Assembly (NCBI GenBank): GCA_036004685.1
Contig: DASYRE010000025.1
Location: 1-64,000, forward strand
Reading direction: 5' to 3'
Source of the DNA: Candidatus Polarisedimenticolia bacterium
Lineage (GTDB): Bacteria; Acidobacteriota; Polarisedimenticolia; Gp22-AA2; AA152
DNA length: 64,000 nucleotides
Shown: positions 1,173-29,675 of the stretch, piece after piece
How the letters are laid out: every line of letters starts with the position of its first letter
Numbering within the stretch: the stretch's first letter is position 1
The notes under the pieces: generated by a model
Told to the model about the DNA's origin: nothing
Databases searched by the model: none
The model's input: only the letters and a program-made list of their open reading frames with translations
Made by a program: the position numbers and the translations under genes

Positions 1173-1334
1173 AAAACTCTAGACCCGCCGTAGCTCTTCC
1201 CGCATTCGCGCCCAGATTCTCCTCCCGACGCTGTCGTTCTGCAGCAGAGCCCGGCGTTTCCAGGTTGACTGGGAGGAACTCTGTGCGTACGCTTTCAAGG
1301 AAGGTTTCAATTGTCAGGGCGAACCGAGGTGAGC

Positions 1335-2618
1335 ATGCGGTTTCCATCAGCCTTAGTGGCGGGCGGGGTCATCGTGACGGTCCTTTCGGGAACGCCTCTC
1401 AGGGCTGAGGACACGCGCAAGAAGTGGCAGTTCGGAGGCGGCTTCTCCTACTGGTCGACGGATGACAATATCCGCAGCAACGCTACGACGGCGTTCGCTC
1501 CGATCGACGCCAGCCAAGCCCAGAATCTTCCGTCAATCCGTTTCTCGGACCCCAGGCCTGATGCCAACGAGCTCAACGAGCCGACCATTCAAGACAACTT
1601 CAAGCTCGACTTCCAGTCGAGCTTCGGAATAACTCGCTGGGTGGCCCTTCAGCTGGATATGAGCTATTTCAGGGGGGACGTGGGGAACATCGAGTTCTAC
1701 TCGGAGGACACCACGGTTCCGGTAGACCTCTTTGCCCAGGCTCCGGATGATAACCTTCCGCCGAACGAACGCACCCAGCCTCGGAATCCTCTCGATCCGA
1801 CGACATCGATTTGTGCTCCGGTCCAAAGCGGAATCCCCGCGCCCCCCGGAACGAAACGTTGCTACGTGATGAGCCCGCAGGCGTCAAGCACGGTGCGGCG
1901 CAACGGGTTCCTTCCGGTAGGGCAGATCACGGAGATTCCAGTAAGTATCTCCGGGCTGGTCAGGTTCCGGCCCGAGAGTCCCTTCGATCCCTATGTCGGT
2001 GCCGGGGTGGGTTACATCTTTACGAGCCTCGACACGAGCAAGAGCCGGATTGGGACTCCACTCGTACTGACCTCCTCGAACAGCGCCGGCAGCAACAGGA
2101 TTTTTACCATGAACGGATTCGATGATGTCAGCGATTTCACCAACGGCCTGGTGGTCCAGGCGATTCAATCCGGGGCTCGGGGCGTACTGAGCTACCCCTG
2201 TCATCAGACTTTCAATCCGAACGGCTGTATCGCCGATCCGAATCGGCCGGCTGGAGGAACACCGCTCACGGCACTAAGCGCTTCGGTAGATGACGGAATG
2301 GAGTACCATCTGACGGGGGGAGTGGACTATTATTTCTCCGATCGTTGGTCCATCTATATCGATGCCCGGTACGTCTGGGCGCAAAGCAAAGTTAAGGTGC
2401 GAATCAATAATGAAGAGCAGGTGCTCACGAACTACCAGGATTACGGATGTGTGAATGGAGCTCCCACCTGCCGCGCCGTTTCCGGAGTGACGGACATTTC
2501 GAATGCGATCATCCTTAACCCTACGGTCGACGAGGCCAACGATATCATCCTCATTCAGGGAGGCGACATCCGGCTCGGCGGATTCTCCATAGGAGTAGGC
2601 GCAAAAGTCACTTTCTAA
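1335..2618 (+). CDS. Secreted outer-membrane beta-barrel protein located between 23S and 5S rRNA
   Basis: This 427-residue protein starts at ATG 1335, preceded by AGGTGAG; a TTG at 1311 is possible but would spoil the signal peptide. Residues 1-24 form a signal peptide ending ..GTPLRA. The rest shows alternating hydrophobic/polar strands, a VGAGVGYIF glycine-rich strand, and a C-terminal SIGVGAKVTF ending in Phe, the usual outer-membrane barrel signature. The last third resembles OmpW/OmpA-like barrels (a strand such as WSIYIDARYVWAQSK). Four cysteines in the mature part may form disulfides in extracellular loops. Its base composition looks less GC-rich than genes further right. A weak promoter-like pair TTGACT (1265) and TACGCT (1288) lies upstream. 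It sits co-directionally inside the rRNA operon, so read-through from the rRNA promoter is likely. The exact function is unknown. Confidence 0.85.
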   Translation: MRFPSALVAGGVIVTVLSGTPLRAEDTRKKWQFGGGFSYWSTDDNIRSNATTAFAPIDASQAQNLPSIRFSDPRPDANELNEPTIQDNFKLDFQSSFGITRWVALQLDMSYFRGDVGNIEFYSEDTTVPVDLFAQAPDDNLPPNERTQPRNPLDPTTSICAPVQSGIPAPPGTKRCYVMSPQASSTVRRNGFLPVGQITEIPVSISGLVRFRPESPFDPYVGAGVGYIFTSLDTSKSRIGTPLVLTSSNSAGSNRIFTMNGFDDVSDFTNGLVVQAIQSGARGVLSYPCHQTFNPNGCIADPNRPAGGTPLTALSASVDDGMEYHLTGGVDYYFSDRWSIYIDARYVWAQSKVKVRINNEEQVLTNYQDYGCVNGAPTCRAVSGVTDISNAIILNPTVDEANDIILIQGGDIRLGGFSIGVGAKVTF

Positions 2619-25587: not shown

Positions 25588-27864
25588 CTAGCTGCCGGAC
25601 AGAGGCACCTTCTCGGTGCCCACGTTCCCCTCGGTGTCGGTCGCCTTCAGGAGCATGGAGTGGTTGCCCGCCGGAAGCTTGTCGAGCGGGATCCGGTATT
25701 GCTCCGACGCCGAGTCGGCGATGCCGTCCGTCGGGACCGCCAGGATCCAAGGCGCCGCGTCGAGCGAATACTCGAGGGAGCGCACCGGGCTGGCCGAGTC
25801 GCTGACGCGGACGTCGATGCCCATCCTCTTGTCCTCCTTCTTCACGGAGGCTTCAATCCGTGGAGGCAGGTTGTCGACCACGAAGGGGGGGCTGACTTCC
25901 TCGCCAATCTTCTCCCCGCCGGGGGGATTCGAGGGGGCGTCGCTTGCCTGGACCTTGATCCGATAACGCCCGTCGGGCATCCGCGTCGAATCCCAGGCGA
26001 AGTAGCCTTCCCTGACTCCCCGCACCAGCGGTTTCCAATCCGAGTCTCCGTCGACCCGGTAGTAAAGATCGTAGCGCAGCGCATCGGAATTCGGATCCGA
26101 TGCCTCCCAGCTCATCGAGCGCATCCCCTTCTGGAAGATCTTCTTGCCGGGAAGGGCCGGGAACGGGGAGGCGAACTCCGTTCCTTCGGGGGGAACCGGC
26201 TGCCCCGAGAAGGCGGTTTCGGCGGCCTCGGGTTCGGCAAGAGGCGGAGGCTTGAGGATGACGACCCCGGGCGGATTCACTTCGAGCTTGCGCACTTCCG
26301 GCGGGAGGTTCGCGGGAAGGTAGACCAGTGAGACCGCTTCGAGAAGGGGAGTCGCTCCCTTCGTCTGTCTCGACAGACGGGCCCTCCATTGGATGAACCG
26401 CGCCGCCGGGCTGACCACGCCGCTGCCCCCGGGCGTCGAGTAGGCGGGCGACCAATCGCTCCAGGTGGTGTCGGGCAGGGCGCTGTTGCCGGTCCGGGTG
26501 AAGACCTCCACCTTCGTGCCGGCGGGCGCCGATCCCAGCCAGTTGATCCGCCCCCAGCGGGAAATCGTCCCGGCGTCCCGGGGGGGCGAGAGGTAGGTTC
26601 CCGAATCGGCCACTTCCTTGTCGAGCAGGTAGACCTTCCCCGAGTTGCTCGCTGCCGCGTAGAGCGATCCGTCGGGGGAGGCGAGGAGGGAAGTTATCTG
26701 GGATGAGGAGAGGCGGGCCACCAGGCTCGAGGAGCCGTCCGGCTCGACCCGGCGGATCTTGCCGAGATCGCCCGTCCCAAGATAGAGCTCGGTCTCCCCG
26801 GAGACCGCCAGAGAGAAGACCGTCTCGCTTTCCGAGCTCCAGATCGGCCTGGAGGTACCGTCCGGGTCGACGCGAAACACCTGGCTGCGTACCGGGCGGG
26901 TCTCGGGCCCCGCCGGGAGAGTCGCCTCCTCGGTCCTTCCGGTCTCTTCGCCAATCGTCTCCGACAGCGACGGCCCTCCTTCGGGAACCACCGTCGCCAC
27001 CACCGCCTCCTGCGCCCCGGGCGCCGAGACCCGCACCCCTTTCGGGATCCTGGCGGCGGGCGACTCGCCCTGGATGGCGGAAACGAAGATCCGACCCGCG
27101 GCGTCGAGAGCGATGGAGTTCACCTCCTTCAAAGCGGTGTCGAGCACGACGCTCCCCTTGCCGTCCGGGGCGATCCGGTAGAGGAGACCCTTGCCGGAGG
27201 AGCCGGCCAAAAGGCCTCCCTGCCGGTCGAGCGCCAGCGCCACGATGTGGGACTCCTCGCTGTCGTAGAAAGGAGCTCCCTTGCCCCGCTCCCCGACTTT
27301 GTAGATGATGCCGTGCTCCCCGGTGGCGACGAAGAGATTTCCGGAGCGATCCACCGCCAGAGCCCAGATGTAGCGCTCCTCGGGATCGAACCAGACCTCG
27401 GACTTGCCGTCCGGCGTCAGGCGGTAGACCTTACCTTCCGGATTCGTTCCGACGAAGAGGTTGTCCCGGGCGTCGACCGCCAGTGCCTGCACCGCCAGCT
27501 CGCCCGAGGAATAGAACAGGCTGCCGGACCCGCCGCGGGCGATCTTGAAGACCCGGCCGTCGTTGCCGCTTCCCACGTAGAGATTCCCCTTGGAGTCCAG
27601 GGTCTCGCACCAGAGGAACGGCTGCGAGTTTTCTTCCAGCGCCTTGACCGGCAGCTCCCGGATCGTCCGGGCCAGGAGGATGCCTCCCCGCGCGGTCACC
27701 GCCACGCCGTCGGGCTTGCCTTTCTCGAAGTCGGCCAGGCTCTGCTGCGTCCAGAGGACGGGTGAGACGGCATAGATCGATTCCGATCCCGCGACCAGGC
27801 AGCCGGCCGCCGCGAGCGACCGGAGCAGCCTGCGGATGCGCGAAGGGCTGCGCCACGGCATCAT
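25588..27864 (-). CDS. Exported beta-propeller protein with C-terminal beta-sandwich domains, function unknown
   Basis: This protein of about 758 residues has an N-terminal signal-like segment (RSLAAAGCLVAGSESIYA). Residues about 60-420 carry propeller blades with repeated units such as NLYVGSGNDGRVFKI, NLFVGTNPEGKVYRL, NLFVATGEHGIIYKV, GLLAGSSGKGLLYRI and SLYAAASNSGKVYLL. The second half has beta-sandwich-like sequence (RYDLYYRVDGDSDWKPL, RYRIKVQASDAPSNPP), suggesting Fn3/Y_Y_Y-like folds. ATG 27864 is preferred because GGAGGA lies 9 bases upstream; ATG 27873 overlaps the peptidase stop as ATGA but sits directly against that site. It is translationally coupled to the S55 peptidase gene. Role is unknown; a surface or periplasmic binding scaffold is the simplest guess. 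Confidence 0.75.
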   Translation of the reverse strand: MMPWRSPSRIRRLLRSLAAAGCLVAGSESIYAVSPVLWTQQSLADFEKGKPDGVAVTARGGILLARTIRELPVKALEENSQPFLWCETLDSKGNLYVGSGNDGRVFKIARGGSGSLFYSSGELAVQALAVDARDNLFVGTNPEGKVYRLTPDGKSEVWFDPEERYIWALAVDRSGNLFVATGEHGIIYKVGERGKGAPFYDSEESHIVALALDRQGGLLAGSSGKGLLYRIAPDGKGSVVLDTALKEVNSIALDAAGRIFVSAIQGESPAARIPKGVRVSAPGAQEAVVATVVPEGGPSLSETIGEETGRTEEATLPAGPETRPVRSQVFRVDPDGTSRPIWSSESETVFSLAVSGETELYLGTGDLGKIRRVEPDGSSSLVARLSSSQITSLLASPDGSLYAAASNSGKVYLLDKEVADSGTYLSPPRDAGTISRWGRINWLGSAPAGTKVEVFTRTGNSALPDTTWSDWSPAYSTPGGSGVVSPAARFIQWRARLSRQTKGATPLLEAVSLVYLPANLPPEVRKLEVNPPGVVILKPPPLAEPEAAETAFSGQPVPPEGTEFASPFPALPGKKIFQKGMRSMSWEASDPNSDALRYDLYYRVDGDSDWKPLVRGVREGYFAWDSTRMPDGRYRIKVQASDAPSNPPGGEKIGEEVSPPFVVDNLPPRIEASVKKEDKRMGIDVRVSDSASPVRSLEYSLDAAPWILAVPTDGIADSASEQYRIPLDKLPAGNHSMLLKATDTEGNVGTEKVPLSGS

Positions 27865-27869
27865 CGGGC

Positions 27870-29675
27870 TCATTCCTCCACTTCAAGGGTAAGGGTTTTG
27901 TATCCGTCGATGGCGTAGGAGGTCGGAATCGATTCCTCGGCGACGCCGCGGAAACCCACTCGAAGGAAGTTCCCTTCCGTCTGGGGGCGGAGCATCACGA
28001 GCGCCTTGGAGGGGGGAAGGTCGGGCATCCGGGCCCCCTGGAAGAACAGCCCGTTGTCGGGACGGGTGAGAATCACGTAGAGATGATCGTTCGGCCGGAT
28101 GTGGTTGATCAGCCAGATGAGCTGCGGCAGATCGCGCGGGTGAAGCTCGGGAGCGTCGGCTTCCTCCTTGCGGCTGACGGTCGCCCCGTCCCCGACCTGG
28201 AGGATCAGCTTGCCCGGGGTCAGCTCCTCGGGAATGGTCAGCTCGAAGGTGCGGGTGATCTCCTGACCCCGGTACGGCTGCAGCGTGACGGTGAGGGGCA
28301 TCTTCTCCCCCGCCTTGACGCGGTCCTTGCCGCACCAGACGCGCTCCACCCGCGCGCTGCGCTTCTCGTCGGAGTATTCCAAGAGCAGGTTGATCCCGTT
28401 GATCCGCGCGGGATGATACTCGTTGTTGAGGATCAGCTGCGAGATGTAGGCGACGGTGCCGGAGGCGTAGAAGGGCGCCTGGTCCCCGGAGAAGAGATTC
28501 TTCAGGACGATGTCCTCCTCTCCCGCCACCTTGATGACCGAACCCTCCTGGAGCCGGACGGTGATCTCCCCGTAGTCCTTCTGGGCGCTGCTGAGGATGG
28601 CGTTCAGCGAGGCGTACAGGATGTAGGGAGTCAGGAAGGAATCCTCCATCACGTCGAAGGCGTAGCGCTCGGGGCGGGAGAGATTCCCCGACATCTCGAC
28701 GCGCACCGGGATGAGGCGGGCGGGCGCGGAGAGCGATCCGGCGATCGCGACCGCGCGGTCCTGCTGGATCGAGCCGATGTCGCCGGACACGGGAGAGGCG
28801 ATCTTGAACGACGAGTTGAGGGAAGGCATGAGCGTGTGGACCACGGCGGCGGACATCGGCATCGAGATCGGACCGAGGTTCATGAGGGGATGGCCGAAAG
28901 CGAGAAGGCGATCGCCGTCCCGGTAGGTCACCGTGCCCACGGCGCTGATCTCCACGTCCCCTTTGGCGAGCTTGACGGCCACCGCGGAGCCCGGCGCGAG
29001 CGCGTCCGCCGACTCCTCGGACTTGCCCGCCACCCCCACTTGCACGGGGACCAGCCCGGCGCTCGCCAGGTCGGGCGCCAGCCGCGCCAGGAGAGGCGCC
29101 GAGAATCCGGAGAACGCCAGGGGGGTTCCGATCGGGCTGAAGGAAGCGAGCGGCTCGGGGGCGATGCCCGCGGCGCTCAAGTAATGATCGAAGTGGCCGA
29201 GAAGCGCGTCAGGATGCAGCAGGGGAGTGAGAGCCGATAGCCCCGGGAGGGAGGGAGCGGAGCGCGAATGGCCGGGCGAGCCCGCCCCTCTCTTCTGGAC
29301 GTCCAGCATCTCCTCGATCGGAGTGACCCCCGCGATCGCCTCCTTCGCGAAAGCCCAGCTGTAGGCCACCGCCCCGATCACGCGGCCGTTGACGTAGATC
29401 GGCGAGCCGCTCATCCCTTCCAGGACGCCGGTGCGGTCCACCGGATCGCCGCTGAGGCGGACCAGGATCAGGTTTCTCTTGGGGGCGATGTTCTCCATCA
29501 AGCCGGTGATCTCGGCGTTGAACTTCGTGATGCGGGTGCCCTGAAAGACCGATCGACCCTCCCCCTTCATGCCGATCTTCAGCTCGGAATAGGGCAGGAT
29601 CTCGTCGGCGCGCGCCGGCAGGGCGGGCGCCGACGCGAGGGCGAGAAGCAGGAGGAACGAAGCGCGTCGACTCAT
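27870..29675 (-). CDS. Secreted SpoIVB-type (S55 family) serine peptidase-like protein
   Basis: This 601-residue exported protein has a signal peptide (residues 1-23, ..LPARA). Residues about 25-330 match the S55 family known from the sporulation signalling peptidase SpoIVB. Key segments are LVRLSGDPVDRTGVLEGMSG, the catalytic-serine motif GMSGSPIYVNGRVIGAVAY (residues 87-105) and LAFGHPLMNLG. The C-terminal half is beta-rich with no family I can name. This organism shows no sporulation genes here, so the role is probably envelope related. ATG 29675 is chosen for the signal peptide; the frame stays open upstream through antisense of argS. It is followed by the beta-propeller gene, suggesting that the two products work together. 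Confidence 0.82.
   Translation of the reverse strand: MSRRASFLLLLALASAPALPARADEILPYSELKIGMKGEGRSVFQGTRITKFNAEITGLMENIAPKRNLILVRLSGDPVDRTGVLEGMSGSPIYVNGRVIGAVAYSWAFAKEAIAGVTPIEEMLDVQKRGAGSPGHSRSAPSLPGLSALTPLLHPDALLGHFDHYLSAAGIAPEPLASFSPIGTPLAFSGFSAPLLARLAPDLASAGLVPVQVGVAGKSEESADALAPGSAVAVKLAKGDVEISAVGTVTYRDGDRLLAFGHPLMNLGPISMPMSAAVVHTLMPSLNSSFKIASPVSGDIGSIQQDRAVAIAGSLSAPARLIPVRVEMSGNLSRPERYAFDVMEDSFLTPYILYASLNAILSSAQKDYGEITVRLQEGSVIKVAGEEDIVLKNLFSGDQAPFYASGTVAYISQLILNNEYHPARINGINLLLEYSDEKRSARVERVWCGKDRVKAGEKMPLTVTLQPYRGQEITRTFELTIPEELTPGKLILQVGDGATVSRKEEADAPELHPRDLPQLIWLINHIRPNDHLYVILTRPDNGLFFQGARMPDLPPSKALVMLRPQTEGNFLRVGFRGVAEESIPTSYAIDGYKTLTLEVEE

Follow-up and report, generated by a model that had tools for sequence, protein, structure and literature searches.

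The 64,000-nucleotide stretch analyzed here (positions 1 to 64,000 of contig DASYRE010000025.1, assembly GCA_036004685.1; hereafter the window) originates from a Candidatus Polarisedimenticolia bacterium of the phylum Acidobacteriota. It carries a gene for a protease of family S55, the family of the SpoIVB protease, followed by a gene for a beta-propeller protein (Table 1). The adjacency of the two genes, and their 4-base overlap when the first ATG of the propeller gene is used, had been reported in a first-pass annotation and are borne out by the coordinates. Apart from this ATG at position 27873, two ATGs 9 and 12 bases further on, located about 10 bases 3' of a GGAGG motif, appear equally plausible as start codons. 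The same annotation had remarked on the lack of a sporulation context, and indeed no Spo0A match (PF08769) was found in the genome.

Table 1. Features of the S55 and propeller genes, in window coordinates
Feature	Position	Strand	Size or basis
Beta-propeller protein gene, product probably exported, with C-terminal beta-sandwich/immunoglobulin (Ig)-like region	25588..27873	(-)	761 amino acids (aa)
Pro/Ala/Ser/Thr-rich low-complexity loop inside propeller, residues ~262-331	26881..27090	(-)	Family comparison
Overlap of S55 stop and first possible propeller ATG, 4 bases (ATGA)	27870..27873	(-)	Sequence
S55-like protease gene, product probably exported, of a very probably circularly permuted family	27870..29675	(-)	601 aa, ATG at 29675
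Histidine barrel, residues 222-347, corresponding to SpoIVB N-terminal barrel	28635..29012	(-)	PF05580 positions 12-99 in relatives, Foldseek, hhalign
Asp306 codon, invariant; candidate third triad residue (Asn290 in SpoIVB)	28758..28760	(-)	106/106; hhalign with one SpoIVB sequence
His262 codon, AFGHP motif; aligned with SpoIVB His236	28890..28892	(-)	106/106; hhalign
Serine barrel, residues 24-134, corresponding to SpoIVB C-terminal barrel	29274..29606	(-)	PF05580 positions 127-193, 9lnf profile match, fold match
Ser89 codon, GMSGSP motif; nucleophile by homology with SpoIVB Ser378	29409..29411	(-)	106/106, plus 12/12
Putative protease signal peptide, residues 1-23, ARA|DE	29607..29675	(-)	By eye and hydropathy script

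Pairing, co-loss, and duplication of the two genes

Both proteins were searched for in each of 396 genomes of the phylum, and an S55 protein was detected in 377 of them and a propeller match in 390. Adjacency was scored among the matches listed (150 for each protein), namely, in the 113 genomes with both genes listed rather than in all 377. The S55 gene adjoins the propeller gene, upstream and on the same strand, in 93 of these 113 genomes; the gene order is fixed in 93/93, and the gap between the matched regions ranges from -22 to 291 bases in 90 of these pairs. A scan of named genomes, for which counts cover the best 80 loci, included Acidobacteriota, Aminicenantes, anammox and other Planctomycetota, Zixibacteria, KSB1, Latescibacterota, and Gemmatimonadales, and a propeller was found directly downstream of S55 at 72 of these loci. 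Since the pair recurs across phyla, the pairing is far above chance, and the coupling suggested by the first-pass annotation extends far beyond this genome, contrary to the outcome named there as its refutation.

The two genes are also lost together. The 19 genomes lacking S55 were rechecked by profile search, which recovered the protein in none of them and in 5/5 control genomes. The best propeller match was absent from 6 of these 19 genomes and had an E-value of 6.5e-12 or weaker in the other 13, as compared with a match below 1e-20 in 376 of the 377 S55-bearing genomes (table read by eye); in the lone exception, G159, the contig stops 340 bases beyond the S55 gene on the side of the propeller. 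Fisher's test on this co-loss gave 2e-31, a figure that ignores kinship, and the co-loss within genera is more telling. Genus g128 comprises G289, with both genes, and the near-complete G187, with neither, and in genus g60 the near-complete genomes G049, G217, and G249 have neither gene while many others have both.

Duplicated units keep their own partners. The genome of the window possesses a second S55-propeller unit on contig C37 (L003:5732-9800), which shows 31% (S55) and 39% (propeller) identity to the window unit and is an anciently diverged copy of the pair. For 9/9 further second-copy propellers fetched from the order, an S55 gene was located directly upstream. Trees were built from 35 pairs; in the S55 tree and the propeller tree alike, the 'a' units fall into one clade and the 'b' units into another, with support of 0.995 to 1.0.

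Some observations weigh against a strict coupling. The genes are apart or on separate contigs in 20 of the 113 genomes, some of them at contig ends, and four named loci (L076, L089, L108, and L126; Pyrinomonadaceae or Blastocatellia by record title) show 0.66 to 6 kilobases (kb) without a propeller beside S55. The other four of the eight exceptions among the 80 named loci are on contigs that stop no more than 460 bases from S55. The large distance between the genes in some clades could be taken to mean that the linkage is passive neighborhood conservation of two unrelated housekeeping genes. This is highly improbable, given that the pair is kept across phyla while other neighbors change, that the co-loss occurs inside genera g60 and g128, that duplicated units retain their partners, and that both genes are retained even when unlinked.

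The set of 106 S55 sequences used below leaves out L067 and L130 (best frame without serine motif), L002 (duplicate), and L030 (frame-broken). The S55 gene of L067 and L030 is spread over two frames, indicating a frameshift or assembly error. The closest named relatives are Acidobacteria records, such as L067 with 55% identity. Records L092, L096, and L112 are titled Bifidobacterium breve or Acidimicrobiia. The neighborhoods of their units group with those of loci from Acidobacteriota, for example L070 and L125 (Vicinamibacterales), and the labels of these metagenome-assembled genomes are probably wrong.

Barrel order and probable active site of the protease

The window protein matches the Pfam family PF05580 (Peptidase_S55) with 34.2 bits (cut-off 25), and 22/22 family members scanned also match. 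The label "SpoIVB-like" of the first-pass annotation hides a very probable circular permutation and a missing PDZ domain. The match covers residues 42-106 and only positions 127-193 of the 210 profile positions, and the NCBIfam SpoIVB equivalog model TIGR02860 was not reached (29.5 bits, cut-off 305.25). No PDZ domain was detected in the window S55 protein at E 0.1 or in 22 family members at E 0.001, and the window protein has just 86 residues ahead of its serine motif. The assignment of the serine half to the C-terminal SpoIVB barrel is further supported by a profile match to the SpoIVB crystal structure 9lnf (chain positions 222-307, E 3.7e-10) and by the fold, which VIA-align superimposed on 9lnf 313-426 with a Z score of 6.8 over 107 residues. 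The AlphaFold2 model containing this half has a predicted local distance difference test score (pLDDT) of 84.6 and a predicted template modeling score (pTM) of 0.84.

For the histidine half (residues ~222-347), an 80% identity filter reduced the 106 sequences to 79, from which segments were taken. An earlier scan of 22 such segments had given no PF05580 match; this verdict was reversed on the basis of the 79-segment Pfam scan and the fold comparison. When each of the 79 isolated segments was compared with the 24,736 Pfam models, PF05580 was the commonest family (11/79, best E 0.015), the next family being matched by 5. Of 20 segments rescanned singly, 4 match PF05580, all inside profile positions 12-99, corresponding to its N-terminal half. 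The AlphaFold2 model of the histidine half alone has a pLDDT of 88.1 and a pTM of 0.77, and Foldseek, run against 350,542 chains, returned SpoIVB as its first match (E 0.027, probability 1.00). Finally, hhalign against four SpoIVB sequences sets His262 on His236. In the window family, the serine part (profile 127-193) comes first and the histidine part (12-99) is C-terminal to it, and it is the serine-half and histidine-half matches taken together that indicate this reversed order. Considered jointly, it is very probable that the protease is circularly permuted, with its two chymotrypsin-type barrels in reverse order relative to SpoIVB, and that it forms with the propeller a real, widespread, and co-inherited two-gene unit.

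Several results for the histidine half speak against the permutation. The hhalign P-value is 0.016, with 1 of 200 column shuffles equally good, and the single Pfam E-values are weak (0.015 to 0.08). Pfam sees no histidine half in the window protein itself, and the histidine-half profile gave no PDB match when built from 22 sequences and chance matches only when built from 79; TIGR02860 was likewise not matched when the 79 segments were searched against NCBIfam. In VIA-align, the second barrels of Spl/Esp score higher (Z 6.1) than SpoIVB (Z 4.0 over 87 residues, 9lnf 108-301), and the two barrels resemble each other. These Pfam, PDB, and VIA-align results would suit a protein in which only the serine barrel is derived from S55 and the next beta barrel is unrelated; such a protein would not be circularly permuted and might not be catalytic either. 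Such an origin is very unlikely in view of the Pfam ranking of the isolated half, the Foldseek result, and the alignment of His262, a residue conserved throughout, on His236.

Ser89, His262, and Asp306 are invariant in 106/106 sequences, in 12/12 further sequences including distant members, and in 28/28 sequences obtained otherwise than through the serine-motif pattern. According to excerpts of PMC12502668, Thr393 was proposed as the third catalytic residue of SpoIVB; the corresponding position is Ala in 77/106 and Ser in 29/106 sequences of the window family. An equivalent of SpoIVB Asp363 was rejected as third residue, since Asp363 is ~24 Å from His236 in SpoIVB (excerpts of PMC12502668) and the nearby D77 and D80 vary here. 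The invariance of Asp306 suggests that it completes the catalytic triad, and the protease is likely to be catalytically active.

The propeller partner and possible modes of action

Both proteins are predicted to be exported. Both members of the window pair start with a signal-peptide-like stretch. With a simple hydropathy script, such a stretch was found in 96/106 S55 and 88/97 propeller sequences, and a later transmembrane-like stretch in 1/106 and 0/97, respectively. The possibility that the propeller is an anchored lipoprotein was dropped, as a lipobox-like sequence is present in just 5/97.

The window propeller was found to match PF07494 (Reg_prop, 47.9 bits) and PF08450 (SGL) in Pfam, and NF033206 at 45 bits, below the cut-off of 80; its residues 90-270 match propeller structures. 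The loop rich in Pro, Ala, Ser, and Thr occurs at the same place in 97/97 propellers, with a length of 46 to 92 aa (mean 66) and a sequence that is not conserved. The invariant residues Y168, W170, N410, R460, W471, W474, D720, and E724 are all outside this loop and point to a conserved binding surface.

The explanation that we consider reasonably probable is that of a dedicated two-component cell-envelope proteolysis unit, formed by an exported permuted protease and an obligate propeller partner. The first gene would encode an exported SpoIVB-homologous serine protease, with serine barrel, histidine barrel, and a family-specific C-terminal region in this order, that would act through Ser89, His262, and probably Asp306. 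The second would encode an exported beta-propeller that also has beta-sandwich/Ig-like domains and may stand in for the missing PDZ domain; as obligate partner, it would dock on the protease and either control it or supply its substrate, most likely by offering the active site its own long flexible loop or a client that it has bound. A physical complex and a regulatory role of the partner are thus predicted, and the loop could be a bait or regulatory element. A more detailed version has somewhat less than an even chance, namely, a phylum-core envelope proteolysis system that Acidobacteriota have in common with anammox bacteria and a number of candidate phyla. In it, a naturally permuted (barrel-swapped) clan-PA protease would have a complete Ser-His-Asp set, of which its sporulation relative SpoIVB lacks the Asp, and would be controlled by a dedicated propeller through a disordered loop acting as bait or regulatory substrate. 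A particular function of the propeller, be it substrate recognition, docking, inhibition, or regulation, or that of a substrate, can be assigned only tentatively.

The same loop, its variable sequence and fixed place, the joint loss of the genes, and their fixed order could also be accounted for if the propeller were a mere substrate, with the protease clipping the loop or a linker to mature the propeller for cell-surface assembly and serving no other dedicated client. We regard this as rather unlikely, because the loop contains no conserved motif that marks a cleavage site and many invariant residues are outside it.

The pair has argS as its upstream neighbor and genes for a solute-binding protein and an ATP-binding cassette (ABC) permease downstream (Pfam scan). 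Neighbors within 6 kb of the 80 named loci were clustered, and ten representatives were scanned, which correspond to an extracytoplasmic function (ECF) sigma factor, shikimate enzymes, a tetratricopeptide repeat (TPR) protein, an aminotransferase, an epimerase, an ABC permease, ArgS, and three proteins without match. A third conserved partner was rejected, since only the pair itself keeps a fixed position from phylum to phylum and most neighbors recur no further than inside a clade. One TPR cluster is found in several phyla, on either side and at distances that vary, and many of the clusters consist of antisense shadow frames.

These neighbors bear on a sporulation-like signaling role, in which the propeller would be the sensor and the protease would trigger an intramembrane M50 protease that sets a transcription factor free. 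SpoIVB works in the sigma-K checkpoint of Bacillus (excerpts of PMC12502668), and five M50 matches are present in the genome. All five are off the two unit-bearing contigs (C25 and C37), the other neighbors vary by clade, and the regulated-intramembrane-protease partner that the first-pass annotation had proposed to search for was not found there. Neither an M50 protease nor an anti-sigma factor is among the ten recurring neighbors scanned, the sigma factor recurs in one locus group only, and Spo0A and a PDZ domain are lacking, which makes such a role quite improbable.

No promoters were found, and terminator-like sites were hardly above the level of shuffled sequences. Elsewhere in the window, a 435-aa open frame (1311-2618, plus strand) is located between the 23S ribosomal RNA (rRNA), which ends at 1172, and the 5S rRNA, which starts at 2632, an unusual site for a protein gene; it has a signal-peptide-like start and, by eye, the look of an outer-membrane barrel.

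Relation to known systems and significance

The closest known system is SpoIVB of Bacillus subtilis (MEROPS S55, PF05580), an exported serine protease with homologous serine and histidine barrels, the GMSGSP serine motif, and the GH histidine motif. The window family differs from it in the reversed barrels, the lack of PDZ, ~250 extra C-terminal residues, the invariant Asp at Asn290, Ala or Ser at Thr393, the absence of sporulation, and the fixed propeller partner. The HtrA/Deg proteases (S1C) are likewise exported and share the two-barrel fold class; the modeled serine barrel can be superimposed on the second DegQ/DegP barrel with Z of about 8, and its matches to serine barrels of the HtrA type reach Z 8.2 over ~100 residues, tied with many relatives. 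In HtrA, the histidine barrel comes first and PDZ domains are present, whereas the window protein has no PDZ and no Pfam trypsin match at E 0.1. Propellers of the ScyD/ScyE and Reg_prop types have similar repeats (NF033206, below cut-off, and PF07494), but the window family differs in the low-complexity loop, the C-terminal beta-sandwich/Ig-like region, and the operon with an S55 protease.

The first-pass annotation suggested that the pair may be an unrecognized envelope quality-control or signaling unit. Literature searches on SpoIVB/S55 with Acidobacteria, propellers, or anammox bacteria/Planctomycetes, and on permuted chymotrypsin-like proteases, retrieved no paper on the family or the pair, with subscription journals mostly outside the search. 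Excerpts of PMC8841776 report that S55 was detected widely among acidobacteria and that two Acanthopleuribacteraceae lack it, and in the excerpted table of PMC6411480 no PDZ-bearing SpoIVB is tabulated in Acidobacteria, which agrees with the PDZ absence in the window family. SpoIVB was not found in viral contigs. Genes for SpoIVB were also noted on L150-L152, which had been deposited as plasmids from Clostridia and related bacteria; in 2/3 the gene is next to spo0A, and these records may be mis-called chromosome pieces.

If true, a permuted protease of the chymotrypsin fold would imply that nature can join the two barrels in either order, and the permutation would bear on the origin of the atypical active site of SpoIVB. 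The pair points to an unstudied cell-envelope proteolysis unit. The protease was detected in 377 of the 396 genomes sampled from this major phylum of soil bacteria, and anammox bacteria have the pair as well; the unit lends itself to studies of what the envelopes of these bacteria process.

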